From: a bacterium
GTDB taxonomy: Bacteria > Patescibacteriota > Patescibacteriia > UBA10025
DNA length: 32,881 bases
Reading direction: 5' to 3'
NCBI GenBank assembly: GCA_021815445.1
Contig: JAKAGM010000001.1
Location: 370,829 to 403,709, forward strand
In this document: piece after piece, positions 4,184-16,264 of the stretch
Numbering within the stretch: the stretch's first letter is position 1
Layout of the letters: every line of letters begins with the position of its first letter
The notes under the pieces: model-generated
What the model saw: only the letters and a program-made list of their open reading frames with translations
Told to the model about the DNA's origin: nothing
Database searches by the model: none
Made by a program: the position numbers and the translations under genes

Positions 4184-6004
4184 TCATCTTTTAAGAACTG
4201 CCAGGAAGGCCTCCTGCGGCAACGTTACTTTTCCCAGCTGCCGCATTTTCTTTTTGCCCTTTTTTTGTTTTTCCAGAAGCTTGCGTTTCCGCGTGACATC
4301 CCCGCCATAGAGCTTGGCAGTCACATCCTTCCTCAGCTGCGCTATCCTTGCCGAAGCGATGACTTTTCCGCCTATCGCCGCCTGTATGCGCACTTCAAAG
4401 AGCTGACGCGGCAACACCTCACGGAGCTTCTCGACGATACTCCTGGCGATTCGGTATGCATCCTTTTGGTATACCATCGTCGCGAGCGCATCTACCGTTT
4501 CATCAGCAATGATAATGTCCAGCCGCACCACATCGCACTCCCTGTACCCCGTTAAATCATACGAGAGCGAGGCGTATCCCGATGAGACGCTCTTTAGCTT
4601 ATCATAGAAATCAACAAGGAGACTAGCCAGCGGCAGCTCATAATGTAGGACAACCCGCGCTTCATCGAGGTATTCCGTGGTTGTATAGTTTCCGGAAGCA
4701 TCCTGGATAAATTGCATCAGCGCCCCGACATAAGCGGGAGGCGTCACTATATTCGCCTGTACCCACGGTTCTTCAATGCGGGCTATATGCATTCTGTCCG
4801 GGAGATCCTGGGGACTGGAGACAATTAGTTCATGGGTGATATCTTTCCCTTTCACTTTTTTTTGAAGAGAGGCGTATCCTGCATCGTTGAAAAAAACTTT
4901 ATACGCAACAGACGGTACCGTAACCACAAGATCGATACCATACTCACGCAGAATGCGTTCCTGCACGATGTCGAGGTGCAGAAGTCCGAGAAATCCGCAC
5001 CGATAACCGAACCCGAGGGCGGGTGAATGCTCGGGCTCGAAAGTAAAGGCCGCATCGCTCAGCTGAAGTTTCCCGAGAGCTTCTCGAAGCTCCGGATATC
5101 TGTCGCCGTCCCGCGGAAATACTCCAGCGAATACCATCGGCTGCAATCTCCTGTACCCCGGCAGGGGCTCTGTGCTTCCCCCTGACTGGAGGGTAATCGT
5201 ATCGCCAACACGGCAATCGCGAACACTTTTGAGATTAGTTACGAGATACCCTATGGATCCGGCAGACAGGGAGCCGGTGGGAACAAGCTGCGGAGAAAAA
5301 ATGCCGACATCGAGAACTTCCGCTGATGCCTGCGTGCCGAGAAACGTAATGTGATCCCCCTTCTGTATTTTCCCCGCCACTACCCTGCAAAAAGCGACCA
5401 CCCCCCTGTACGAATCAAAATTGGAGTCGAATATCAGCGCTTGGAGCGGCGCGCTGGCTTCCCCCGCGGGCGGCGGAATCCGGTCAATGACCGCCTGAAG
5501 TATCTTATCAACTCCTTCGCCTGTTTTTGCGGACACAAAGATAATATCCTCTTCTTTGCACCCGAGAAGAGAAATTAACTGGGATGTTGTTGTTTTCGGA
5601 TCCGCGTTTGGCAAGTCGATTTTATTTACCACCGGTATCACGGCGAGATCATGCTCGAGGGCCAGGAAAAGATTGGAAATCGTTTGCGCCTGGATCCCCT
5701 GGGTAGCGTCCACCAGCAATACGGCTCCTTCAACGGCAGCAAGCGAGCGGGACACTTCATACGTGAAATCCACATGCCCCGGAGTATCGATCAAGTTGAG
5801 CTCGAACCCCTGGTAGCGCATGCGCACGGGCTGAAGCTTGATCGTAATTCCCCGCTCGCGTTCGATATCCATCTGGTCAAGCACCTGCTCCCGCATTTCT
5901 CTCTGCGGGACTGTATGCGTAATTTCCAAAAGCCTGTCGGCGAGCGTCGACTTACCATGGTCAATGTGTGCAATGATGCAAAAGTTGCGGATTTGGTTCA
6001 TCAT
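4184..6004 (-). CDS. lepA: Elongation factor 4 (LepA), ribosome back-translocating GTPase
   Basis: This 606-residue protein is full length for LepA. It starts with the typical MMNQIRNFCIIAHIDHGKST. GTPase motifs are intact: G1 AHIDHGKST, G2 RGITIK, G3 DTPGH, G4 NKID and G5 SAK. EF-G-like domains III and V follow, and the LepA-specific C-terminal domain ends with GGDVTRKRKLLEKQKKGKKK. The family binds the ribosome and remodels it after translocation or during initiation. The start codon overlaps the murJ stop by four bases (ATGA), so the two genes are cotranscribed and probably coupled. A second ATG directly follows the first, and either could be used. Confidence 0.98.
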   Translation of the reverse strand: MMNQIRNFCIIAHIDHGKSTLADRLLEITHTVPQREMREQVLDQMDIERERGITIKLQPVRMRYQGFELNLIDTPGHVDFTYEVSRSLAAVEGAVLLVDATQGIQAQTISNLFLALEHDLAVIPVVNKIDLPNADPKTTTSQLISLLGCKEEDIIFVSAKTGEGVDKILQAVIDRIPPPAGEASAPLQALIFDSNFDSYRGVVAFCRVVAGKIQKGDHITFLGTQASAEVLDVGIFSPQLVPTGSLSAGSIGYLVTNLKSVRDCRVGDTITLQSGGSTEPLPGYRRLQPMVFAGVFPRDGDRYPELREALGKLQLSDAAFTFEPEHSPALGFGYRCGFLGLLHLDIVQERILREYGIDLVVTVPSVAYKVFFNDAGYASLQKKVKGKDITHELIVSSPQDLPDRMHIARIEEPWVQANIVTPPAYVGALMQFIQDASGNYTTTEYLDEARVVLHYELPLASLLVDFYDKLKSVSSGYASLSYDLTGYRECDVVRLDIIIADETVDALATMVYQKDAYRIARSIVEKLREVLPRQLFEVRIQAAIGGKVIASARIAQLRKDVTAKLYGGDVTRKRKLLEKQKKGKKKMRQLGKVTLPQEAFLAVLKR

Positions 6005-7662
6005 ACATTGCCCCCGGGAGTTTGAGGTTCTTCCGGTATTTTTTTCTTTCCGTTAAAAAGCTGAGTACGCATCTTGTTAAACTTCTCCGTGAGAATGCTG
6101 ATTTCGTCGCAATGGAAAACCATGGCAAGAACAATATAGCAAAGGATGCCCACAACGCCGGCTCCAGCGCCTTGAATAAGAATACCGACAAATGTCCTCA
6201 TATCGACGCCGAGCGCCAGGAAATACTTCATTCCCCATACGACAAGGCCCATGAGAGCCGAAATGAAAACAATTTTGACGGTCGAACGGGCAATCGTCCG
6301 ATCATCGAGAAAGCCGACCTTCCTGCGGAGATAGATAAGGAGCAGCATCATGTTAACGATATTAGCCAGTGAAAAAGAAATACCGAGACCTACAACCCCA
6401 TAGTACCGGGTAAGAAGCAGCGCCGTACCGACGTTAATGACAACGGCGAGGATACCGATTTTTACCGGGGTCTTGGTGTCATGAATGGCATAGAAGGACC
6501 TCGCGAGCATAGGAATGAGCGCCTGGGCGAAAAGCGACAAGGAAAAAAAACCGAGCGTTTGGGCCGTCAGATACGTATCACGCCATGTAAAGTGGCCGGA
6601 TCCGAGGATGACGCGCACTATTTGCGCCCGTAGGAGCAGGATGAGAATTGACGTCGGAATAATCAAAAAAATAACGCGGCGAAACGCCTTGGAAAAATGC
6701 TGGACGAATTGCTCCGTGTCATTGCGTGCGAATGCTTCTGAAAAAACAGGGAATGCGGCAATAGCAAGCGAAACCCCAAAGACATTGATAGGGAAACTCT
6801 GTAAATTGTTTGCAAGATTAAAAACAGCGACACTACCGACGGCAAGCGTTGATCCTATGACCGTGCTCATGAGCTGTTCTACCTGCGATACGGCGAGGCC
6901 GAACGCGCGCGGGACCATCAGTTTGCCGACCTTGCGCACACCCGGGTGATGGAAATCAAACGTCAGCCTGTACCGATACCCTACCTTAAGCAAGCTCGGG
7001 ATTTGGATGCATAGATGGGCAAATGACCCGATGACAACTCCGTACGCGAGACCGTACACCCCGTATCGGGGCACTAAAACAAAGATGCCGAGGATGATTC
7101 CCAGATTGTACATGATTGGGGCCAGCGAAAAATTCAGATACCGCCTGAACGAAGACAGGATACCTGTCGCAACGTTGCTCGCGCCGAAAAAAATAATGGC
7201 AATGAGCATGACACGGGTGAGGTGCATGGTGACCAGCTGTTTTGCCGGATCAAACCCGGGAGCAATCAGCGGCATGAGCTGTCTGGCAAAAATAAAAAAA
7301 ATGATCGCGCAGGCGACCAAACCGACCATAAGGAGGTTCAAAATCGAATTAGCGACGTGCCAGGCCTCATGCATGCTCTGGTTCCCCTGCTTATCGTCCT
7401 CCTGTCCGCGTTTCGACATATACCCGATAAAAACGGGGATAAAAGCCGATGATAATGCCCCCAACACCAGTATGTTAAAAACGAGGTCGGGCAGTTTAAA
7501 CGCGGCATAGTAGGTATCGAGGACGTCTCCGGCGCCGAACGACGACGCGAGCAATCTATCGCGGACAAGCCCTAAAATCCTGCTAAGGATTGAAGCAAGG
7601 GCTATAATAATTGCACCACCAGTGACGGTGGTGTTTATCTTGTACCAAAGGCGTCTCAACAT
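6001..7662 (-). CDS. murJ: Lipid II flippase MurJ (MviN family)
   Basis: From the ATG at 7662 the protein has 553 residues with about 14 transmembrane helices. It carries the family N-terminal pattern GGAIIIALASILSRILGLVRD followed by a DTYYAAFKLPD-type motif. MurJ flips lipid-linked peptidoglycan precursor across the inner membrane, so the cell makes a murein wall. The same frame is open from a GTG 17 codons upstream (7713). I chose 7662 because a promoter-like pair (7679-7707) lies in that extension and MLRRLWYKINTTVTGG is the more usual beginning. No SD is seen. The stop overlaps the lepA start by four bases. Confidence 0.95.
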   Translation of the reverse strand: MLRRLWYKINTTVTGGAIIIALASILSRILGLVRDRLLASSFGAGDVLDTYYAAFKLPDLVFNILVLGALSSAFIPVFIGYMSKRGQEDDKQGNQSMHEAWHVANSILNLLMVGLVACAIIFFIFARQLMPLIAPGFDPAKQLVTMHLTRVMLIAIIFFGASNVATGILSSFRRYLNFSLAPIMYNLGIILGIFVLVPRYGVYGLAYGVVIGSFAHLCIQIPSLLKVGYRYRLTFDFHHPGVRKVGKLMVPRAFGLAVSQVEQLMSTVIGSTLAVGSVAVFNLANNLQSFPINVFGVSLAIAAFPVFSEAFARNDTEQFVQHFSKAFRRVIFLIIPTSILILLLRAQIVRVILGSGHFTWRDTYLTAQTLGFFSLSLFAQALIPMLARSFYAIHDTKTPVKIGILAVVINVGTALLLTRYYGVVGLGISFSLANIVNMMLLLIYLRRKVGFLDDRTIARSTVKIVFISALMGLVVWGMKYFLALGVDMRTFVGILIQGAGAGVVGILCYIVLAMVFHCDEISILTEKFNKMRTQLFNGKKKIPEEPQTPGGNV

Positions 7663-7678
7663 ATCGGATAGTATGTTG

Positions 7679-7707
7679 AAAATAGCATATTTCGCGGTTT
7701 TTTGCAA
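7679..7707 (-). promoter_or_regulatory. Candidate sigma70 promoter of murJ-lepA
   Basis: On the minus strand TTGCAA (7702-7707) and TATTTT (7679-7684) are separated by 17 bp. Transcription would begin near 7672, giving a leader of about 10 nt before the ATG at 7662. This also argues against the longer GTG start. It is a manual match only. Confidence 0.4.
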
Positions 7708-7720
7708 CCCCACTGCGAAG

Positions 7721-7767: not shown

Positions 7768-7791
7768 CCTCCGCCCAAAATTGGTACCAAA

Positions 7792-7921
7792 AAGCTGCCA
7801 GCAACGTTCGGTGGATTATCGAGCTTATCAGAGTATAGCATCCGCCTTCTTTCGAAAACGGAGAGGAGAGAGATTTACTATATAAGACAAGTCCGAAGTG
7901 TACCGATATTGCTGGCAGCTT
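7792..7921. repeat. 13-bp perfect inverted repeat bounding a 104-bp segment
   Basis: AAGCTGCCAGCAA (7792-7804) is repeated as its exact reverse complement at 7909-7921. A 10-bp perfect palindrome, TTGGTACCAA (7781-7790), abuts the left arm. The enclosed 104 bp contain no recognisable gene. The arrangement could be a small non-autonomous element or a long RNA stem. Confidence 0.5.
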
Positions 7922-7981
7922 GTTGTCCCCGTTAGATTTTTCTAACTGGAAAAGCTGAAGTTGATTTGTCAAAGAAGTGGT

Positions 7982-8025: not shown

Positions 8026-8159
8026 TGGTGGAGGGTCAGGGGTTCGAACCCTGTCTTGTCTCGAGAGACAAGTGCGCCGGGAACAAACCGACATGTCGGT
8101 CTGTGCGATGCGCATGCAGCCCGTTTCGGCAGATGGTTGATCTGTCGACTGCCCCCTCC
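8026..8159 (-). ncRNA. Structured RNA candidate with a tRNA-like 3' half ending in CCA
   Basis: On the minus strand the last 30 nt fold as a tRNA 3' half: a T arm CAGGG-TTCGAAC-CCCTG, a 7-nt acceptor strand ACCCTCC, discriminator A and CCA. A matching 5' strand, GGAGGG, occurs 134 nt upstream (8159). Between them lie a hairpin CTTGTC-TCTCGA-GACAAG just before the T arm and a near-perfect inverted repeat around CCGACATGTCGG. I could not build a convincing D arm or anticodon arm, and the length is wrong for a tRNA. It also lacks the tag-reading frame of tmRNA. A TATGAT box at 8174-8179 (minus) could start the RNA near 8167. It may be a tRNA-derived remnant, an integration site or a novel RNA. 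Confidence 0.4.
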
Positions 8160-8525
8160 GGCTTATCGCAAGAATCATAGGTCCTCTGAGGTACGGTGTT
8201 GCTCCTTGTGGAGCGGTGAGTAGTGTGATGAGGGGTGAGTAAAAAGAGCATTATTCCTTCTCACTAGGCATGGTACTCCAATGTCTCGTGGGAAGGAAGG
8301 GAGACGGCACAGCAAGCTGTGGGTCTCCCGGTAATCCGATGCCGCGGGGGGACTGCGGCTGGATTCATGACACGGTGCGCGGAAATCGCTTCGACAGTTT
8401 CGTCGGGCGACTACGGCGATGCCGATGTCGTACACGACGGCTCTGCTCTCTCTCAGCAGCGCCCCGTTCGAGGAAAGCTGCTAGCGATTTCCTCGTTCCA
8501 TCCTCTTCCATACGCCTCCCAGTAG
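8160..8525. other. Gene-free structured stretch at left edge of the accessory block
   Basis: No reading frame here has a believable start signal. Two hairpins stand out: GGGAGAC…GTCTCCC (8299-8329) with an inner CACAGC/GCTGTG stem, and CGAGGAAA…TTTCCTCG (8469-8495), the latter just downstream of the 74-residue orphan gene on the minus strand. A TATGAT box at 8174-8179 points at the tRNA-like element. Confidence 0.5.
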
Positions 8526-8750
8526 TCAGATGTTGTACTTGTCTCCGAACTTTGCGCCTCGGTTGAACAAGTAAATCCCAAAAGCGATGTTGATCGCGCC
8601 ACGGACAAGTAAGAGCGCGATGAGGTTCCAGTCCATACCAGAATCGATCCACGTGAAACACAGAATTCCGAACAGAATCAGTGCAGCGGATACGATGCCC
8701 GCGAGTCCCTTGACCCACTGGGCCTGAATGGTTGTGAGCATCACTGGCAT
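8526..8750 (-). CDS. Orphan two-span membrane protein (74 aa), array unit 6
   Basis: The start at 8750 (ATGCCAGTGATG) is chosen because AGGGGGCAGT precedes it at SD distance; the frame is open further upstream, but that part crosses a hairpin module. The protein has two hydrophobic segments (about 11-31 and 40-60) and a short charged end (NRGAKFGDKYNI). I recognise no family. It is the last gene of a minus-strand array of small orphans and follows module 6, with a small hairpin (8770-8783) between the module and the SD. Confidence 0.7.
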   Translation of the reverse strand: MPVMLTTIQAQWVKGLAGIVSAALILFGILCFTWIDSGMDWNLIALLLVRGAINIAFGIYLFNRGAKFGDKYNI

Positions 8751-8786
8751 ACTGCCCCCTGTTGATGTGAAGAACGTTTTCTTACT

Positions 8787-8832
8787 CCCCCCTTTCCAGA
8801 CTCGATACTTGTGAATCGAACCTGGAAAAGAG
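8787..8832 (-). repeat. Two-tier hairpin R6 of the accessory-array module
   Basis: On the minus strand CTTTTCCAG pairs with CTGGAAAGG (outer stem, 8 of 9 pairs). An inner stem CGAT/ATCG sits within the loop. It shares GAATCGAACCTGGAAAAGAG (plus strand) exactly with R5. It lies between the terminator of the upstream unit and the SD of the 74-residue gene. Confidence 0.8.
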
Positions 8833-8833
8833 A

Positions 8834-8883
8834 TCCCAGCCCCGCGTGCTTCACAATTGAGCGACGCAGAGGCGAGGCTGGGA
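8834..8883 (-). terminator. Terminator T6 of array module 6
   Basis: TCCCAGCC (minus, 8876-8883) pairs with GGCTGGGA (8834-8841). On the minus strand the stem is followed by TCTCTTTTCC, the tail shared by all six modules. It follows the 60-residue orphan gene. Confidence 0.65.
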
Positions 8884-8908
8884 AACCGAGAGACATTCAC
8901 TTGGGCGG

Positions 8909-9091
8909 TCAGACTGGGAGGCCGAAGTGTTTCAGCAACAGCCAGAGGATGAAATAGAAAAGTAGGATACCAGCCGCAAGAAGCGCCACCGACACCCTCA
9001 GCCCGATTATGCCCATTCCTCGGCTGTTGAGGCCAGAGGCGCCCATAATAGTGCTAAAGGTGCCAATGGCCATGAAAAACATATTGAGCAT
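8909..9091 (-). CDS. Orphan membrane protein (60 aa), array unit 5b
   Basis: The ATG at 9091 is preceded by a strong SD, AGGAGGGAACATC. The 60 residues are mostly hydrophobic with two membrane segments (about 2-20 and 28-55) around a small turn (NSRGMG). No family is recognised. It follows the 151-residue gene with an 83-bp gap and no hairpin module between them, so these two are the only genes in the array sharing one unit. It is followed by terminator T6. Confidence 0.75.
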   Translation of the reverse strand: MLNMFFMAIGTFSTIMGASGLNSRGMGIIGLRVSVALLAAGILLFYFILWLLLKHFGLPV

Positions 9092-9174
9092 GATGTTCCC
9101 TCCTAGTTAGAGTGAGGATCACTTTGAAGAATCGACCGTTTCAAGGGATCGCCGAGAGCTGTCATACATCGAGC

Positions 9175-9630
9175 CTAAACCAGATGTACCGGCTTAATCC
9201 TGCCAACCATGCGGGCGTAAGTCCACCCGTTTTTGGCGAAATCGTGACTTTCCTCCGCAGGAATCCCGTCAATCCCCGTGCCGTTATCCCAGCGAACGCC
9301 TTCGAGCAGAGAGTTGCGCGGCATGTTCGGGAGTAATCTCCTCACCGTATCGAGGTCGGGGTTTCCCTGACCTGTTAGACGTGTATAGATCGCGACAACC
9401 TCTGTTGCCAGGTTCGCCACGTCGTTTGCGTGACGATAACGTTCTTCGTTAAGCCGGACCTCGGTGGTCCACTTGCGCAGTGCCATCACTGCACAAGCGA
9501 AGCCCAACGAGATGACGCTTACGGTGTGATAGACCGGGATTCCGAACACGACGCCGAGACCGAGTAAATCCATCGAGGCGTAGGCCAGTGTAGTCAGACC
9601 CACTATCCAAACAACAGTTTTCTTGAACAT
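9175..9630 (-). CDS. Orphan membrane-anchored protein (151 aa), array unit 5a
   Basis: The ATG at 9630 has AGGTGG six bases upstream; a GTG one codon earlier is possible. The protein begins with two hydrophobic helices (about 4-22 and 24-49) and continues as a soluble, acidic helical domain (about 55-150, with NEERYRHANDVANLATEV). I recognise no family. A hairpin TGCTC-ATCT-GAGCA (9647-9660) lies directly upstream of the SD. Module 5 precedes it, and the 60-residue membrane protein follows in the same unit. Confidence 0.75.
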   Translation of the reverse strand: MFKKTVVWIVGLTTLAYASMDLLGLGVVFGIPVYHTVSVISLGFACAVMALRKWTTEVRLNEERYRHANDVANLATEVVAIYTRLTGQGNPDLDTVRRLLPNMPRNSLLEGVRWDNGTGIDGIPAEESHDFAKNGWTYARMVGRIKPVHLV

Positions 9631-9688
9631 CACCCACCTGTCTTTCTGCTCATCTGAGCAATTGTAGCGTACAGTTTAATTTCTTTTT

Positions 9689-9731
9689 CTCTTTTTCAGC
9701 CCCGATTACATGAATCGAACCTGGAAAAGAG
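9689..9731 (-). repeat. Two-tier hairpin R5 of the accessory-array module
   Basis: On the minus strand the outer stem is CTCTTTTCCAG/CTGAAAAAGAG (10 of 11 pairs). The inner stem is CGATT-CATGT-AATCG. About 40 nt are nearly identical to R3, one of the clearest direct repeats in the window. It separates the 281-residue secreted protein gene from the 151-residue gene. Confidence 0.85.
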
Positions 9732-9732
9732 T

Positions 9733-9765
9733 CAGGAGCCGAACGAGTAAACAACTCGGCTCCTG
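9733..9765 (-). terminator. Terminator T5 of array module 5
   Basis: A 10-bp perfect stem, CAGGAGCCGA/TCGGCTCCTG, with a 13-nt loop is followed on the minus strand by ACTCTTTTCC. It lies 37 bp after the stop of the 281-residue gene. Confidence 0.8.
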
Positions 9766-9801
9766 AAAGACTGACAGAAAAACGAGACTACTAAAGTGCA
9801 A

Positions 9802-10647
9802 TCAGCGCTTGCTGGTGAACGCAGTCGGTTGGCCGACGTAGATGAAGTGCAGGTTCGTTGAACCCGCGAATCGCACCATTAGCCAGTTACCGACCAAGAC
9901 GTTGCCGACCTGCAAACCATCAAAATCAGCGAACAGATCGTCCCCAAGAGACATTTCCTTGAGAATATGGCAGTCGTCCGGAGAAGTAAACGGCTGGTGA
10001 GGCTTTACGTCGAGGTCGAATTTCTTGGCAAGGATCATCGAGACAGAATCGACCTTGCCCCTGGCAACGAGATCGCTGTACAAGTTCTTGGAATTGAACT
10101 TGTCTAAGGCGCGTTGTATGACGTTTTCATCCAGCCCTTGCGAATTGTTGGTGATAACGTATTTCACCATTTGTTTCGTGGTAACGCCCGAGGTTTCAAT
10201 GGCCACGGTATCCGACTTCATACGCCGAAGGATGTGGACGCCAGACCCGATTTTGCCGTACCCGATGTACAGCACGTAAAGATCGTCGGATATCTTCCGT
10301 ATCCCGATGGTGTCATCATTCCGCATACCCAGCGGAGAAAAGAGTCGCTTGGACCGCCCGGATGTCGGGAAGAATGCCCAACCATTTCCGCGCCCATCTA
10401 TTAGGCCCGGGGAGTCACTCATCCAGGTCGAAAAGCATTCTGCCATTTCATCATAGACCTCACCCGCGGTCTTGATGTCAACACGGTCCATGACGTTAGT
10501 ATTGCGCACCCACTCATTCGACCAATTTCGAAAGAGTTTGCAATACGTGTTGCACCTCTCCTGGGCAGCGACGACCGACGTCATGGCGCAGACAATGATG
10601 ACTACCGCCAGAGTGGCCGTAAACCACAGGCTCTTTTGAGTCTGCAT
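9802..10647 (-). CDS. Orphan secreted protein (281 aa), array unit 4
   Basis: The start at 10647 is chosen because AGGAGGAAGTC precedes it and it opens directly into a signal peptide (residues 1-28, cleavage likely after SVVAA). Upstream in-frame codons would extend through hairpin R4. The mature protein is soluble with two early cysteines (RCNTYCKLF) and further cysteines near EMAECFSTW and PDDCHILKE, so disulfides are possible. I recognise no fold. A hairpin CTCCGT…ACGGAG (10659-10675) abuts the SD. It is the largest gene of the array. Export makes a surface or extracellular role likely, but this is inference. Confidence 0.8.
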   Translation of the reverse strand: MQTQKSLWFTATLAVVIIVCAMTSVVAAQERCNTYCKLFRNWSNEWVRNTNVMDRVDIKTAGEVYDEMAECFSTWMSDSPGLIDGRGNGWAFFPTSGRSKRLFSPLGMRNDDTIGIRKISDDLYVLYIGYGKIGSGVHILRRMKSDTVAIETSGVTTKQMVKYVITNNSQGLDENVIQRALDKFNSKNLYSDLVARGKVDSVSMILAKKFDLDVKPHQPFTSPDDCHILKEMSLGDDLFADFDGLQVGNVLVGNWLMVRFAGSTNLHFIYVGQPTAFTSKR

Positions 10648-10720
10648 GACTTCCTCCTCTCCGTTTCTTACGGAGAACTTGTGATAGTTGTATTGTGAAT
10701 TGCGTTTTCTGTCTTTGTTT

Positions 10721-10763
10721 CCCTTTTCCATCTTATATCATACTGATACGAGATGGAAAAGAG
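10721..10763 (-). repeat. Two-tier hairpin R4 of the accessory-array module
   Basis: The outer stem CTTTTCCATCT/AGATGGAAAAG is perfect over 11 bp. The inner stem on the minus strand is TATCA-GTA-TGATA. The distal part of the outer stem differs from R1-R3 and R5 (CCATCT in place of CAGC or CCAG) yet stays fully paired, which is covariation evidence for a folded RNA or single-stranded DNA. Confidence 0.85.
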
Positions 10764-10766
10764 ATT

Positions 10767-10802
10767 GCAGAGGCAGCGACGGTTTGAACGTGCTGCCCCT
10801 GC
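10767..10802 (-). terminator. Terminator T4 of array module 4
   Basis: GCAGGGGCAGC and GCTGCCTCTGC (minus strand) pair over 11 positions with one mismatch and are followed by AATCTCTTTTCC. It lies 16 bp after the stop of the 143-residue gene. Confidence 0.75.
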
Positions 10803-10818
10803 GGGAAAGAGCTCGGTG

Positions 10819-11250
10819 TCAACAGGCGGCCGTGGAAGTCGTAGTGGAGTCGCAAACGGATCGCCCGCTCCAACGCCACATGAATCTGGCAAACAGGGCA
10901 AACACCGCGCCGACGACCAGCGCACTGATCAGGTATGGAAGGTCCCTCGGCTGAAACACGTTCATGGCATTCAGGAGGGGGCCTGCGGCTCCCCAAATCA
11001 TGCCCCACGCGATGAAACGTATCCTGCGGTTACGACTGTACCCACCGAACACCGCGCCAGCCATCCCAACCACCATCCCTGCGATGATGATTACGGGCAC
11101 TTGCGCTGGGATGTGAACGGAAGGCGTTCCGCCACAGAGAAGCGACTCAACCATGGAAGAAAGTACTGCGGAGGTAGACACGCAGGCCGCGGCACCAAGC
11201 AGTAGTGCCACCTTGATACATGTCCGTTTCAACAGTGTAAACAGTTTCAC
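10819..11250 (-). CDS. Orphan four-span membrane protein (143 aa), array unit 3
   Basis: A GTG start at 11250 follows a near-ideal SD (GGAGGAGGAAATC). Four hydrophobic segments are seen (about 13-33, 51-70, 78-95 and 104-125), separated by short basic loops such as YSRNRRIRF. The C-terminus is short and Ser/Thr-rich. No family is recognised. A 15-nt palindrome CCGAGTT-A-AACTCGG (11262-11276) lies directly before the SD, where it could protect or mask the ribosome site. Confidence 0.75.
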   Translation of the reverse strand: MKLFTLLKRTCIKVALLLGAAACVSTSAVLSSMVESLLCGGTPSVHIPAQVPVIIIAGMVVGMAGAVFGGYSRNRRIRFIAWGMIWGAAGPLLNAMNVFQPRDLPYLISALVVGAVFALFARFMWRWSGRSVCDSTTTSTAAC

Positions 11251-11310
11251 GATTTCCTCCTCCGAGTTTAACTCGGTGTTGACTACACCATATGTGAAGA
11301 TCGTTTTTTT

Positions 11311-11352
11311 CCTTTTTCAGCCCCGATTACATGAATCGAATCTGGAAAAGAG
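11311..11352 (-). repeat. Two-tier hairpin R3 of the accessory-array module
   Basis: On the minus strand the outer stem is CTTTTCCAG/CTGAAAAAG with one mismatch, and the inner stem is CGATT-CATGT-AATCG. It is nearly identical to R5 over about 40 nt. It separates the 53-residue and 143-residue genes. Confidence 0.85.
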
Positions 11353-11353
11353 A

Positions 11354-11404
11354 GGCGAGCGGATGTATAGAACATCACATGGACAATATGCCCAATAGCT
11401 CGCC
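11354..11404 (-). terminator. Terminator T3 of array module 3
   Basis: GGCGAGC (11398-11404 on minus) pairs perfectly with GCTCGCC (11354-11360) and is followed on the minus strand by TCTCTTTTCC. The loop is long (37 nt), which weakens it as a classic terminator, but its placement matches the other modules. Confidence 0.6.
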
Positions 11405-11438
11405 GACTGACCCGGAGAAGAGAACAGGAGGAGGAACT

Positions 11439-11600
11439 TTACCTGCAGCGAGCACGGGCCGCTGCAATATTGGAGACCGTCTGGCGCCACGTTACACGCA
11501 GTGCAAGAGAAAATCGATGGAACGCTCCACGCAGATTGTCGAGAGACGACCCATAGGAGCGCAAGTAAGCGTCCAGCAATAACTCGAACCGTTTCAGCAT
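11439..11600 (-). CDS. Orphan small basic protein (53 aa), array unit 2
   Basis: The ATG at 11600 has the SD GGAGGAAGC just upstream. The frame is open further, but that part runs through hairpin R2. The peptide is basic and probably helical (MLKRFELLLDAYLRSYGSSL at its start, many Arg later) with no obvious membrane span. No family is recognised. The evidence for coding is the strong SD and its fit between modules R2 and R3. Confidence 0.6.
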   Translation of the reverse strand: MLKRFELLLDAYLRSYGSSLDNLRGAFHRFSLALRVTWRQTVSNIAAARARCR

Positions 11601-11630
11601 GCTTCCTCCAGATGAAGTGTACGTTGTTTT

Positions 11631-11678
11631 CCCTTTTTCAGCAGACATTAGCAATAGCCAATCCCCGCTGAAAAAGAG
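11631..11678 (-). repeat. Two-tier hairpin R2 of the accessory-array module
   Basis: The outer stem TTTTTCAGC/GCTGAAAAA is perfect, with one further flanking pair on each side. The inner stem on the minus strand is ATTGGC-TATT-GCTAAT (six pairs, one G-U). It resembles R1 closely and forms a second sequence class distinct from R3, R5 and R6. Confidence 0.85.
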
Positions 11679-11679
11679 A

Positions 11680-11728
11680 GGCGGGGGGGAAACATGAGCT
11701 GCATGAGCTAGTTTCATTATCCCCCGCC
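11680..11728 (-). terminator. Terminator T2 of array module 2
   Basis: On the minus strand GGCGGGGG (from 11728) pairs with CCCCCGCC (ending 11680), followed by TCTCTTTTTC. It is GC-rich and strong, with a 33-nt loop. It ends the unit of the pentapeptide-repeat gene. Confidence 0.7.
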
Positions 11729-11776
11729 GTATGGGCCTTTGCCCACATTTTTTGGAAAGATCCGTTTTGGTCGCTG

Positions 11777-11793
11777 TGACGTAGCTACGTCAT
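11777..11793 (-). other. 16-bp perfect palindrome overlapping a two-codon mini-ORF with SD
   Basis: TGACGTAGCTACGTCA (11777-11792) is a perfect palindrome, long enough to be a dimeric protein site. On the minus strand GGAGGGTC (11799-11806) stands seven bases before ATG-ACG-TAG (11793-11785). The mini-ORF sits downstream of the pentapeptide-repeat gene and upstream of terminator T2. It may be a chance occurrence, a decayed gene start or a leader peptide. Confidence 0.35.
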
Positions 11794-11839
11794 TCGATGA
11801 CCCTCCGTTGTTGTTGAAAGCCGTTGCGACTCAGGTCCG

Positions 11840-12535
11840 TCAGGACTTCTGAGCCTCCAGCCATTCGTTGAGACTGGTGTACTTTCCAAATGTGACCCTT
11901 GCTCCGAGAATCACGAGGTAGGGCAGGATCTGCATACAGCCATGCAGCTTCCCAAACGTAGCATCGTCAGGGAAGAAATCGAAATTGAAAGTCGGCACCC
12001 GCTCGAACCACAACGACTTGATGGTTGCCGACCCGCAATGAAACGGACCGTTGAACGTTGCCACTTCGCCCCGCGTTGACTGGCTTGACAGACCACCAAT
12101 GGTGGCCTTGCGCAGGTGGATGCCCTTGTGAAACTGCGCTTCATTCAGGCACAGGTTCCCATCGATCATAACGCTTCCCATGTCGACGTTGCCGTGAAAG
12201 ATCGCGGCGCCACAGTCCACAGCCATCAAGAATACTGCGTTGCCGAATTTCACATCCCCCCAGAAGCTCGACATCCGGTGATCGCCATCCCACCAACCCC
12301 CGAGATTGAGGGTAACTTCGAAGCGGGATCCGCTAAAGTCAACTGCCTTCCGGAATGTAGCATTGCAGAAATTGACGTGAGCCAGGAATGTAACCTGGTC
12401 GAGCGACACGGGATGCTCGATAACCGCATTTCCGAGTCGTACGTCGTCGACCACTGTAATTCCAGTGAGATCCACCCCGGAGATAAGCAGTTGTGTGAAC
12501 TCATCCCCTGACACACTTCTTTTTCTTGTACCCAT
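11840..12535 (-). CDS. Pentapeptide-repeat-like protein (231 aa), array unit 1
   Basis: The ATG at 12535 lies six bases after a strong SD (AGGAAGGGG); a TTG two codons earlier is possible. The centre of the protein has five-residue periodicity typical of right-handed quadrilateral beta-helices (for example VNFCNATFRKAVDFSGSRF, then VKFGNAVFLMAVDCGAAIF and VDMGSVMIDGNLCLNEAQF). Such repeats form rod-like scaffolds. The partner is unknown. The N-terminus is charged with no signal peptide, and a C-terminal hydrophobic stretch (CMQILPYLVILGARV) may contact a membrane. It is the only array member with a recognisable architecture. A good promoter lies 73 bp upstream, after R1. Confidence 0.8.
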   Translation of the reverse strand: MGTRKRSVSGDEFTQLLISGVDLTGITVVDDVRLGNAVIEHPVSLDQVTFLAHVNFCNATFRKAVDFSGSRFEVTLNLGGWWDGDHRMSSFWGDVKFGNAVFLMAVDCGAAIFHGNVDMGSVMIDGNLCLNEAQFHKGIHLRKATIGGLSSQSTRGEVATFNGPFHCGSATIKSLWFERVPTFNFDFFPDDATFGKLHGCMQILPYLVILGARVTFGKYTSLNEWLEAQKS

Positions 12536-12607
12536 TTTCAACCCCTTCCTGCGAAAGATGTAACGAATACGGTTAATTCTTTTTCAATGCATTCGACTGC
12601 CTCAGGA

Positions 12608-12635
12608 TTGATACTGAGTAGAGTCGATGTGTCAA
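12608..12635 (-). promoter_or_regulatory. Sigma70-type promoter of the pentapeptide-repeat gene
   Basis: On the minus strand TTGACA (12630-12635) and TATCAA (12608-12613) are separated by 16 bp. A start near 12601 would leave a leader of about 65 nt. It sits between hairpin R1 and the gene, so at least this unit can be transcribed independently. Confidence 0.6.
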
Positions 12636-12648
12636 CGAGCATTGTTAT

Positions 12649-12696
12649 CCCTTTTTCAGCAGAGATTGACATTAGCCAATACCCGCTGAAAAAGAG
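12649..12696 (-). repeat. Two-tier hairpin R1 of the accessory-array module
   Basis: The outer stem TTTTTCAGC/GCTGAAAAA is perfect. The inner stem on the minus strand is ATTG…CAAT. It shares the outer stem with R2 while the loop has diverged. It is the rightmost copy found. Confidence 0.85.
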
Positions 12697-12698
12697 AT

Positions 12699-12733
12699 GC
12701 TGGGACACAGATAAATACTATCCGTACCCCAGC
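12699..12733 (-). terminator. Terminator T1 of array module 1
   Basis: GCTGGG (minus, from 12733) pairs with CCCAGC (ending 12699) and is followed by ATCTCTTTTTC. It implies a transcript arriving from further right, where only a mini-ORF and structured DNA are visible. Confidence 0.6.
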
Positions 12734-12736
12734 AAC

Positions 12737-13560
12737 ATGGCCGTGACAGAGACGACTTTCAGTCTTGGGGGATGTCTCCCTATGAAAGATCATTTTACAT
12801 CTCTGCCGAGCGTTCGATCGGGCGGACCGCGGTGATTTTCAGTTCCAGGGAATCACCAGCCCTGCTTGGCCGGAACATTCCAGCCAAAGGTCGTCAGTAG
12901 TGCATGGACCCTCCTTAGTGAGCGGCTCATCGGAGACCATCGACGTTCCCTAGAGAACGTCTGACGCATCATATCTTTCCCTCAACGAACAGATCTGGAG
13001 ACGATGGGCGGGCTTACCCTGCTAAAAAGCGGGTCACCCGACCGGGAAGCGGCTCGGAGCTTTCCTAGTTTACACCAGGCAGGCTCGCGAACTGTGTGCT
13101 TCCTTTCATCCCCTCCATGTCTATTCATTGCAGCGTAGTAGCTGTTTAACGGCAAGGTGGATAGTGCTACCAATAAATACTGTAGTATCTCCCTTAGATC
13201 CTGAGCGGAGTCCCGACTTTCGGGACGGAGTCGAAGGATCCCATTGAAATTGAACCGTTGATCAATTCATTGGGATTCGGAGTCCGGCGTTCTCAATTGG
13301 GAAGGAAGGTGGGGCGGCGAATAACGAGAGTCTTCGTCGCCCCGGGTCATGCAGCACTACTGCGGAAAGAATGCGGGCGAACAAAGGAGGAATTTGGAGG
13401 CGATGATGGACGGCTTATGTTCCAACAAAAGTGGAACGCGCACCCATCGTATGAGCACTTCACGGAGGTATCCCCAAGATCGCTCCTGGGAAAACTTCTT
13501 TCCATGCCCTGATCGCGACGACGGACAAGCCTCGTCGTGATTCTCTCTCCCCCAAATTTC
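12737..13560. other. Stretch without a convincing gene, rich in hairpins and short decayed frames
   Basis: On the minus strand a very good SD (AAGGAGGG) precedes ATG-CAC-TAC-TGA (12905-12894). The same frame stays open after the TGA for 31 more codons to a TAA. A 7-bp hairpin GACGTTC…GAACGTC (12942-12961) lies upstream of it. A plus-strand frame of 45 codons (13403-13540) has AGGAGG upstream and ends in a hairpin CGACGA…TCGTCG. A hairpin GGGGCG…CGCCCC spans 13313-13343. None is strong enough to call as a gene. The region may hold decayed units of the array. Confidence 0.4.
13197..13240. repeat. Interrupted palindromic repeat of the GATCCTGAGCGGAGTC type
   Basis: The outer parts (GATCCTGAGCGGAGTC and GAAGGATC) form an imperfect palindrome resembling a motif I remember as common in intergenic DNA of many bacteria. 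Here it is split by a partial duplication of CGGAGTC around an inner hairpin GTCCCG-ACTTT-CGGGAC. It lies at the right edge of the accessory block. Confidence 0.5.
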
Positions 13561-13583
13561 TCCTTTCTACCCTTTTTTTGAAA

Positions 13584-13660
13584 CAAAAAATGGGTAGTAG
13601 TTCGCTCGTTATCTGTTCCGTTCTTTGAAAGAGAAGAGACCACGAATGAACTACCACCCA
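13584..13660 (-). terminator. Rho-independent terminator of the candidate RNA
   Basis: On the minus strand TGGGTGGTAGTTC (13660-13648) pairs with GAACTACTACCCA (13603-13591), with one G-U pair that would be an A-C mismatch on the other strand. The stem extends by several more pairs and is followed directly by TTTTTTG. Both the wobble and the T run point to the minus strand. Confidence 0.75.
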
Positions 13661-13792
13661 TTCTGAAAATGTGAAAAGTTTTACGCTTATAAAACTTGGT
13701 GGTGTATCGTTATATTATATCTAGTTGTCTAGATAACTCTCTCCTCAAAGAATTATCGTGTAATGTGCGCATCCGCCTGATGGCAGATTTAA
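13584..13792 (-). ncRNA. Candidate ~210-nt structured RNA with own promoter and terminator
   Basis: A consensus promoter (13799-13827) would start an RNA near 13792, and a strong terminator ends it near 13584. Between them on the minus strand lie two more perfect hairpins, TATCTAG-ACAA-CTAGATA (13718-13735) and AAGTTTTA-TAAGCG-TAAAACTT (13676-13697). A 104-codon frame starts inside at 13661, but it lacks an SD and would cross the terminator. I do not recognise the RNA family. It could be a free small RNA or an attenuated leader for DNA further left. It sits between the exopolysaccharide operon and the orphan-gene array. Confidence 0.5.
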
Positions 13793-13798
13793 CAGAGA

Positions 13799-13827
13799 AG
13801 CATATACCATCCCGGGTGACCTGTCAA
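13799..13827 (-). promoter_or_regulatory. Consensus sigma70 promoter for the candidate RNA
   Basis: On the minus strand TTGACA (13822-13827) and TATGCT (13799-13804) are separated by exactly 17 bp. It is one of the best promoter matches in the window and faces the accessory array. Confidence 0.65.
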
Positions 13828-13951: not shown

Positions 13952-16264
13952 TCAGTTTTTCTGCGCAACGAAGCCAAAAAACTTGTCTGTGGATAAGTCC
14001 TGGGAAATAAGCAGACGATCCTGCAAATGGGTAATCCTGTCATCGAGGAAGCTGTAAGAGAGATCGCCGGGCGGAGTGATGGTCTGGATGAACGCGGCAT
14101 TTTCTACCCCGGGTTGTTTCTCGACTAGGATAGAGTATTCGGCTGCCTTAGTGAGAAGGCCACGGAAGGTAAAGGTAAAGGGTAGCTGGTACTTAATAGT
14201 GGCCGTCGTGGAAGCGCCGGGGTCCACGGTAATCCAATTGCCAAAGACGGTCTTTCCGAACTCGCTGGTAATCCTTGTACCGGTGGCTTCGTCAACCTGG
14301 GGAGTACCCTCGACGGACTGGAGGTCCTGGTCAAAGGTATAGCCACTTTCAGGATTCTGAAAACGGAACGACGGGATCCGTTCAAACCCTTCAGCTGAAA
14401 TGAGCATACTCCCGTTCGGCACGTATACCCGCACATAGTCGACATTGGATACCCCCTCAAACTTGTCCTGAGGATTTCCGTGATGGACACGGGTGATAGT
14501 GAGCGTGTTTACGATTTTGCCGTCCGAGCCTATCTCAGTAGTGAGCCGCTGTAAATTTTCAATTACTCTGTCGGTCTTACCGCCGCCGATATTGGCATGG
14601 ACGACATAGAGATAGTCTCGCGCAGTCTGCAATATAGAACCGTCCCATCCAAGCTCCTGAACTGCACTGCTGACGGCGCTGTTATTCGAAAAATAGAGCA
14701 GGATGTCTTTTGATGCGAAAAGCGAAGCGAGCTGGCCTGAAAGTTCGAGAAACTTGTCGCCGGGCAGACTGAACACCTGATTGAGCAGTTTCGGAGTAAG
14801 TTCGGTAATAAAACGCTTGGGCTCGGTTCCCTGCGCCCGGGCCTCCGTATCAGCAAAGCTCTGCGCAAGCCTGACCACATTCTGGTCAGTCACCGTGACA
14901 TTGAAGTCCGGCATGGGAATGGGGCCGGTGAGCTTCAGGAACGCCTCAAGGACATCCGGCGTGAGAGCGACAACTCCATCGACTGTCGGACCGCCGCTTC
15001 GTTCATAGAACCACATGACTTTTCGCGCACTCGCGGGAAAATCCGGGAACCAATTTGCGTCCTGGATGTTCCAGGCGGGATTTACCAAATGAAGCGGCGT
15101 CGGTGAAATGACTTTTGTTGATAATTGCCCTGCAATATCATAGCTTCCGCCTTTAGGCACTTCGAGATTTTTTATTTGCCCCCCGTCGACGTCCATCAGC
15201 GCTAAGGAGCCTATAAACCCTCCTGTGGGACGGATTTCATTGTTATTCTGGAAAAGGAGCAGGAACCTCTGGGGAGAATTTACTCCCAGTAACGTGTACA
15301 TCACCCCTTCAGACTTTTTGAAGCGCTGCATCACTTCATTGAGTTTTGGGATATCGGACTTGATTGACAATACTTGGGTCTGAAACGGCTCAGGAACGTC
15401 CGACGTTTTTACTTTTTGTATTTCATCGCTTGCCGAGGCGAGCGCGTCCGCCGCAAGATCGAAATGCCCTGAGAAGGATTTGAGCTGGTTGGCAAAAGTA
15501 ATGCCGGAAAGCGTATCTGCATGGAGAAGCCCGAGTGATTGGCTGAGCTCCTGACCGGCGCGGCTAATATTTTTCCCTGCAACTATGATGTGTTGTGCGG
15601 ATGACACTTTTGGGACGACGGCAAGCAATTGGCCGAGTGTCTGGCTCGAAGTTTCGAGCTGTATCTGCGCGTGTTTGAACTGGGCTTCGGCATCCTGAAA
15701 TGCGGTCGTTGCCCCATTATAGTTATCGGCACTCACGGCCTTCCTCCCGGATTCAAGATCGTTGTACGCCTCAGTCGATGAACCGAGAACGCGGCCCTGG
15801 ATAATTTGCAGATGCTCAAGCTGGCTCAGTGCAAAAAGCGGTGAAACCAAAATAAGAGCAAGTACCGCAAACCCGGCCGCGCCGCGCAACCAGCGGACTG
15901 GATTTCCGCGAGGCGCTTCCTGGAGCGGTGGGGGCGCGGGCTCTTTTTCCAAAGATTTCGGCAGAGGCGGAGGTAGTGCGGCTCGCGCCTTCTTTTCACG
16001 CTGGGTAAATATGCCGAAAAGTAAATTGTGTCTTTTGGTATTACGGACTGTCGGGACAAATGGAGCCGGTTTGGTTAACGGTATCTCCTGATCTTTTTTC
16101 TTCGGCTCACGATTATGAGCCGCCGCCTCACGCTCAAGCATCATCGCCCGAAGATCGATTACATTTGCTTCGGGGATTTTGTTTATCCGAACCTCGCCTG
16201 CGGGCGAGACCGAGGAAGAAACTCCTTTGCCTGGTATTCGTTTGAATCGGACCCGGTGGTTCAT
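13952..16264 (-). CDS. DUF4012-family envelope protein
   Basis: This 770-residue protein has a long proline-rich cytoplasmic N-terminus, one transmembrane helix (about 126-147), an extracytoplasmic helical region and the DUF4012 core. The core is recognised from FLLLFQNNNEIRPTGGF (about 334-350) and from VDGVVALTPDVLEAFLKLTG. DUF4012 proteins are found in Gram-positive and CPR bacteria, often near polysaccharide genes. Their reaction is not established, and a role in attaching or processing cell-surface glycan is a guess from context. It is the last gene of the exopolysaccharide operon. Its start overlaps the stop of the preceding glycosyltransferase by four bases (ATGA), and a terminator follows. 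Confidence 0.88.
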   Translation of the reverse strand: MNHRVRFKRIPGKGVSSSVSPAGEVRINKIPEANVIDLRAMMLEREAAAHNREPKKKDQEIPLTKPAPFVPTVRNTKRHNLLFGIFTQREKKARAALPPPLPKSLEKEPAPPPLQEAPRGNPVRWLRGAAGFAVLALILVSPLFALSQLEHLQIIQGRVLGSSTEAYNDLESGRKAVSADNYNGATTAFQDAEAQFKHAQIQLETSSQTLGQLLAVVPKVSSAQHIIVAGKNISRAGQELSQSLGLLHADTLSGITFANQLKSFSGHFDLAADALASASDEIQKVKTSDVPEPFQTQVLSIKSDIPKLNEVMQRFKKSEGVMYTLLGVNSPQRFLLLFQNNNEIRPTGGFIGSLALMDVDGGQIKNLEVPKGGSYDIAGQLSTKVISPTPLHLVNPAWNIQDANWFPDFPASARKVMWFYERSGGPTVDGVVALTPDVLEAFLKLTGPIPMPDFNVTVTDQNVVRLAQSFADTEARAQGTEPKRFITELTPKLLNQVFSLPGDKFLELSGQLASLFASKDILLYFSNNSAVSSAVQELGWDGSILQTARDYLYVVHANIGGGKTDRVIENLQRLTTEIGSDGKIVNTLTITRVHHGNPQDKFEGVSNVDYVRVYVPNGSMLISAEGFERIPSFRFQNPESGYTFDQDLQSVEGTPQVDEATGTRITSEFGKTVFGNWITVDPGASTTATIKYQLPFTFTFRGLLTKAAEYSILVEKQPGVENAAFIQTITPPGDLSYSFLDDRITHLQDRLLISQDLSTDKFFGFVAQKN

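Follow-up and report, generated by a model that had tools for sequence, protein, structure and literature searches.

In a 32,881-nucleotide stretch of a Patescibacteriota genome (contig JAKAGM010000001.1, positions 370,829 to 403,709 of the forward strand; hereafter the window), seven small open reading frames (ORFs) were found on the minus strand (8526-12535) between two conserved flanks of the same strand, murJ downstream (6001..7713) and a gene of ~770 aa upstream (13952..16264), which is putatively of the DUF4012 type. The ORFs are interspersed with copies of a module of two abutting hairpins; this joint is old and conserved, and the genes between the joints have been repeatedly replaced. 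With moderate confidence, we interpret the locus as a fixed-site, clade-specific island that would yield one transcript with RNA junctions, its units being exchanged at the joints.

All features of the island lie on the minus strand and are given here from upstream to downstream. Module 1 (hairpin 1, 12698..12734; hairpin 2, 12648..12697) precedes the first ORF, a 231-aa pentapeptide-repeat protein (11840..12535) assigned by Pfam PF13576 (1.2e-11) and its in-frame codon score. Upstream of this module, at ~12895-12906, a strong Shine-Dalgarno (SD) sequence is followed by a three-codon ORF, ATGCACTACTGA (MHY), and in the related genome G003 a six-codon ORF lies at a similar place. Module 2 (11680..11728; 11630..11679) is followed by an orphan ORF of 53 aa with a marginal coding score (11439..11600), module 3 (11354..11404; 11309..11353, with a C.A mismatch) by an orphan membrane protein of 143 aa (10819..11250), and module 4 (10767..10802; 10720..10764, with the compensated stem CCATC/GATGG) by an orphan protein of 281 aa with an N-terminal hydrophobic segment (9802..10647). 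Module 5 (9732..9766; 9689..9731, again with a C.A mismatch) precedes two orphan membrane proteins of 151 aa (9175..9630) and 60 aa (8909..9091), which form one unit with no module between them, and module 6 (8834..8883; 8784..8833) precedes an orphan membrane protein of 74 aa (8526..8750).

In each module, a GC-rich hairpin 1 is directly abutted by hairpin 2, whose 5' arm is a U/pyrimidine tract and whose 3' arm consists of the matching purines. A previous interpretation of this DNA from its letters alone (the sequence-only reading) had described six terminator-plus-hairpin modules with homologous spacers. All six are abutting hairpin pairs at the places it gave, with RNA folding z values of -11.4, -8.5, -4.1, -10.6, -6.5 and -7.5 in order and no shuffle folding as well, and a divergent seventh, TTCCTTCC..GAGAAGGAA, follows the last ORF (8255..8329; a similar stretch occurs in G001). 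The homology it had noted applies to hairpin 2, to which it is confined among the window modules (modules 1 and 2, 87% identity over 63 nt; modules 3 and 5, 86% over 59 nt); the copies of hairpin 1 are analogous, with unrelated sequences. The label of terminator is itself uncertain, as the tract after hairpin 1 in relatives is pyrimidine-rich and in several lineages often not a U-run, indicating that what is conserved is not a plain terminator. A covariance model of hairpin 2 scored 60-65 bits for each of the six copies and at most 21.4 bits in the rest of the 1.26 Mb genome, the copies' own reverse strands aside; hairpin 2 is therefore not a scattered repeat, and a dispersed repeat of the REP or MITE kind was ruled out, all six strong copies lying at a single locus. 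The island had no match in Rfam even at E values up to 10, chance-level ones aside, and a literature search returned no description of such an element.

The covariation of hairpin 2 was analyzed on 25 distinct copies from the window and its relatives. A 20-pair stem was found, with 87% of its cells paired, in which double-sided changes occurred in 88 cells compared to 33 in shuffles, and the covariation score was 0.529, compared to 0.225 in shuffles and 0.11-0.18 with slid partners. In 19 of the 25 copies, the pair beside the conserved CAGC/GCTG is unpaired, mostly as C.A. These data indicate that hairpin 2 is under selection for structure. Identity among its copies is 0.66 within a genome and 0.52 between genomes, and certain types are common to several genomes (for example, module 1 of G000 and a G058 copy, 88%).

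The model was then searched against 192 genomes of the class (G-numbers denote the genomes compared and L-numbers the loci). Clustered copies were found in G001, G002, G005, G058 and G031, between murJ and the DUF4012-type gene, where each genome has different small ORFs between the copies. Weaker copies lie at the same site in G003, G004, G017 and G098, and in G038 and G124 the two-hairpin layout is kept with different sequences. Recurrence of the module between different genes, which the sequence-only reading had named as a point to check, was thus found in other genomes at the corresponding locus. Across 18 array pieces, the tandem-hairpin layout was detected 71 times in sense, 20 times in antisense and 12 times in shuffled sequence. 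Single weak matches elsewhere (e.g. G048, G185 and G037) have different surroundings and were attributed to chance, and a phylum-wide sample gave the genome itself plus one weak match only, indicating that the module sequence is clade-specific. In many other, more distant relatives, the DUF4012-type gene and murJ are 0-200 bp apart, showing that an empty site exists. Minimal islands without protein genes, holding only the promoter, leader or structured RNAs and the RNA X described below, lie between the two flanks at L111:8080-9030 and L115:6900-7670. The G005 and G058 assemblies are broken inside the array (L048, L049, L050 and L052).

The content of the array turns over between sister species. 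In the pairs G017/G058 and G031/G098, the flanks are 76-84% and 71-77% identical, respectively, and no array ORF can be aligned, yet alignments were obtained for a module (91%) and for parts of the leader (69-86%); the G058 array is split over two contigs, so that the negative for this genome is incomplete. With regard to the gain and loss of whole units between strains, which the sequence-only reading had named as its other point to check, the observation is a complete difference in gene content between sister species with flanks still aligning; neither a module confined to this genome nor a fixed gene content was seen. Its word "shuffled" is unproven: gene content does turn over, but the comparisons revealed no recombination event, and very few array genes occur in more than one genome.

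One explanation of this turnover is a cassette system resembling an integron, in which hairpin 2 would be the recombination site of some recombinase, acting as folded single-stranded DNA or through the inverted repeat TTTTYCAGC, and the moving unit would be a gene with its site. It would account for the structure and partial sequence conservation being limited to hairpin 2 with unrelated genes between, for the single orientation of the genes, for the restriction of the module to one locus, and for G002, in which identical copies of hairpin 2 are paired with differing first hairpins. As the sequence-only reading had also noted, neither strand of the island contains an attC core pair (RYYYAAC...GTTRRRY, of which shuffles would yield 1.1), and no recombinase was found in the window; the only tyrosine recombinase of the genome, a single PF00589 match at C2:754811, is ~0.37 Mb from the window (starting at C2:370829), serine recombinases and transposases not having been searched for. 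An integron proper is excluded as far as testable by the missing core pair and the lack of a nearby integrase. In G038 and G124, the same layout is built from very different sequences, which is easier to reconcile with a function in RNA than with a recombinase that recognizes a given sequence. We therefore consider a recombinase site in hairpin 2 rather unlikely, and give the same low weight to a non-integron gene-cassette system of this clade in which units of one or two small genes would be captured and exchanged, at the one fixed site, at a conserved tandem hairpin serving as both RNA junction and recombination site.

Alternatively, the joints may be RNA-processing sites only, of the RNase III type, in an ordinary fast-evolving operon with no exchange of units. 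The long near-perfect stems, the one conserved mismatch and the strong covariation of hairpin 2 are all as expected for such sites. But this explanation, which we judge unlikely, leaves unexplained both why the arrays of sister species are unalignable while their modules align and why hairpin 2 is homogeneous within a genome.

The promoter content of the island bears on how its units are read. A sigma-70-type promoter, TTGACA-17-TATGCT, lies before the first unit (13799..13827), overlapped by GGTATATGCT, which aligns with the TATAnT of relatives. Promoter-like sites in the whole array number three, compared to 4.0 in shuffles, with this one (TTGACA at 13827) the best; no convincing promoter was found inside the window array, and the modules have no -35/-10 pairs. 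Every complete array starts with the same promoter type after the DUF4012-type gene and with a leader, usually containing CTTTGAGGAGAGAG, and the second promoters of G004 and G005 are each accompanied by a whole second leader. The simplest interpretation is thus that transcription begins at one point and passes through the hairpins into all units. That they are independent transcription units, a possibility named in the sequence-only reading, each with its own promoter and terminator in the manner of phage morons, is therefore very unlikely, even though a GC-rich hairpin and a U-rich tract do follow most window units.

The island is larger than described in the sequence-only reading. Promoter and leader span 13827-13590, and structured RNAs follow at ~13565-12993 and, beyond the last ORF, at 8159-8026 and 7927-7785. 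The leader contains the motif TTCTTTGAGGAGAGAG (13737..13752), in which a boxA-like CTTTGA overlaps GAGGAGAGAG, and, judged from its sequence, an attenuator-like hairpin followed by T6 (13590..13662). The motif is kept in G001, G002, G003 and G005 and partly in G004, G058 and G038, and leader hairpins similar to that of the window occur in G046, G107 and L111. The boxA is clear in several leaders. At the modules, 13 of the 46 copies outside family f28 have a boxA-like C[CT]TT[GA]A no more than 45 nt from hairpin 2, compared to 2.1 in shuffles and a window background of 7.6%. A strict matrix of the ribosomal RNA operon (rrn) boxA at 7 bits matched 9 of 62 modules, compared to 2-3% expected, some of the matches lying at promoter -35 boxes; given this weaker result, we treat boxA as a partial feature only. 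In the rrn loci themselves (L091, of the same genome, and others), the boxA CATTGACAACTTTGATGTGGTAAGAATA is contained in the helix formed by the 16S leader and trailer, and the trailer carries its near-exact complement TATTCTTACCACGTCAAAGTTGTT.

We propose that one long RNA would start at the single strong promoter behind the DUF4012-type gene. At each joint, the upstream message would end in hairpin 1 and the next would begin with hairpin 2, behind which a boxA-like site often lies, with the transcript continuing. Continuation may be achieved by processive antitermination, by double-strand-specific cleavage inside hairpin 2, or by both. Since the joints are homologous, ordinary homologous recombination could exchange whole units there, leaving the frame in place while the genes change. 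Several observations weigh against this proposal. Movement of an array gene from one genome to another was not observed. Most window modules, and those of family f28, have a weak boxA-like site or none, and of the 13 boxA-like matches two adjoin or are promoter -35 boxes. In several lineages, no U-run accompanies hairpin 1.

The seven ORFs score higher in frame than in both shifted frames with the codon usage of the host, the 53-aa ORF only marginally, indicating that they are genes and, by codon usage, not recent foreign DNA. Convincing Pfam matches were obtained for two of the 59 array proteins scanned (the pentapeptide protein and an N-methyl pilin). A hydrophobic 19-mer is present in 49 of 63 array ORFs, 41 of them near the N-terminus, as raw counts without a proteome background. 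No relative of the 281-aa protein was found among 381 genomes of the class. In BLASTP among the array ORFs, hardly any genes proved to be shared: two last genes matched each other in family f2, two pilin-like proteins were distantly similar, two ORFs were paralogous, and a further pair represents frames over the conserved tRNA-like RNA; a more sensitive comparison added only weak pairs. Phage origin was considered and rejected, as there was no DNA match in phage records; among the proteins checked singly, PHROG matches were limited to two (one pilin-like, one a weak holin).

Conserved structured RNAs frame the array on both sides. Upstream, structured RNA a (13385..13565) has a closing stem AATTTGGGGG..CCTCCAAATT and includes GGAGAGAG, and structured RNA b (12993..13120), closed by TGGAGGGGATG..CATCGTCTCCA, shares 83% identity over 141 nt with G001. 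Similar TGGAGG..CCTCCA domains recur in most related arrays, their closing stem being formed by an SD-like and an anti-SD-like strand. Downstream, a tRNA-like RNA, GGAGGG..TTCGAACCCCTGACCCTCCACCA (8026..8159), has a T arm and an ACCA end with no recognisable anticodon arm; it is part of a region that shares 67% identity with G001 and was not called by ARAGORN or Rfam. Its 3' end had raised the suspicion of an insertion into transfer-messenger RNA (tmRNA), which was dismissed, the tmRNA being located elsewhere in the genome. Next to murJ, RNA X (7785..7927), which belongs to no Rfam family, has a long closing stem and exposes AAATCTCTCTCCTC / AAWCTCTCTCCTC in a closed structure, as also at L046:6363-6525 and other loci. 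The exposed AAATCTCTCTCCTC is complementary to the leader GAGGAGAGAG, and the ten-base core CTCTCTCCTC is its exact complement in the window and in G001-G005, so that CUCUCUCCUC of RNA X may pair with the leader in a regulatory manner. A 13-base core of RNA X was found in 91 of 381 genomes of the class, usually once, and far less often in a reversed control; in other families it lies away from murJ, several times in comparable folds.

Although the genomes of Patescibacteria are very small, up to ~6 kb at one site is devoted in this clade to species-specific small proteins, mostly membrane or secreted, set in a conserved RNA frame. Should units be exchanged at the joints, the island would be a stock of variable surface or secreted functions maintained without an integrase; if not, it would still be an unusual transcript in which one covarying junction element recurs between genes that are unrelated to one another. 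Because the site is single and fixed, and is empty in other relatives, metagenomes offer a test of both readings.

The island shares traits with several known systems. Like integron arrays and CALINs, it holds same-orientation small orphan genes at one site, promoterless ORFs being separated by related imperfect palindromes that are most similar within a genome; in contrast to them, it has no attC core pair and no integrase nearby, a second hairpin stands directly before the spacer, and a single promoter with a leader and conserved flanking structured RNAs are present. With phage morons it has in common small extra genes at a fixed place that differ between relatives, whereas here no gene has its own promoter and the spacers are mutually homologous. 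In the early region of phage T7, RNase III sites lie between the genes. The likeness to the island is that of structured hairpins between small genes in a polycistronic RNA, and the conserved long irregular stem between genes is a trait of such RNase III-processed polycistrons; the island differs in being chromosomal and hypervariable in content, with two abutting hairpins, the second conserved across families. A hairpin and then boxA is also the order in rRNA leaders (boxB-boxA-boxC; PMC10250234). Leader antitermination through NusB/S10 is matched here by a hairpin followed, in a subset of modules, by a boxA-like site, a strong promoter, a structured leader and an rrn boxA of the same type in these genomes. 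Different from the rRNA operons, the island carries small protein genes with the element at each joint, and its boxA is weak or missing in many modules.

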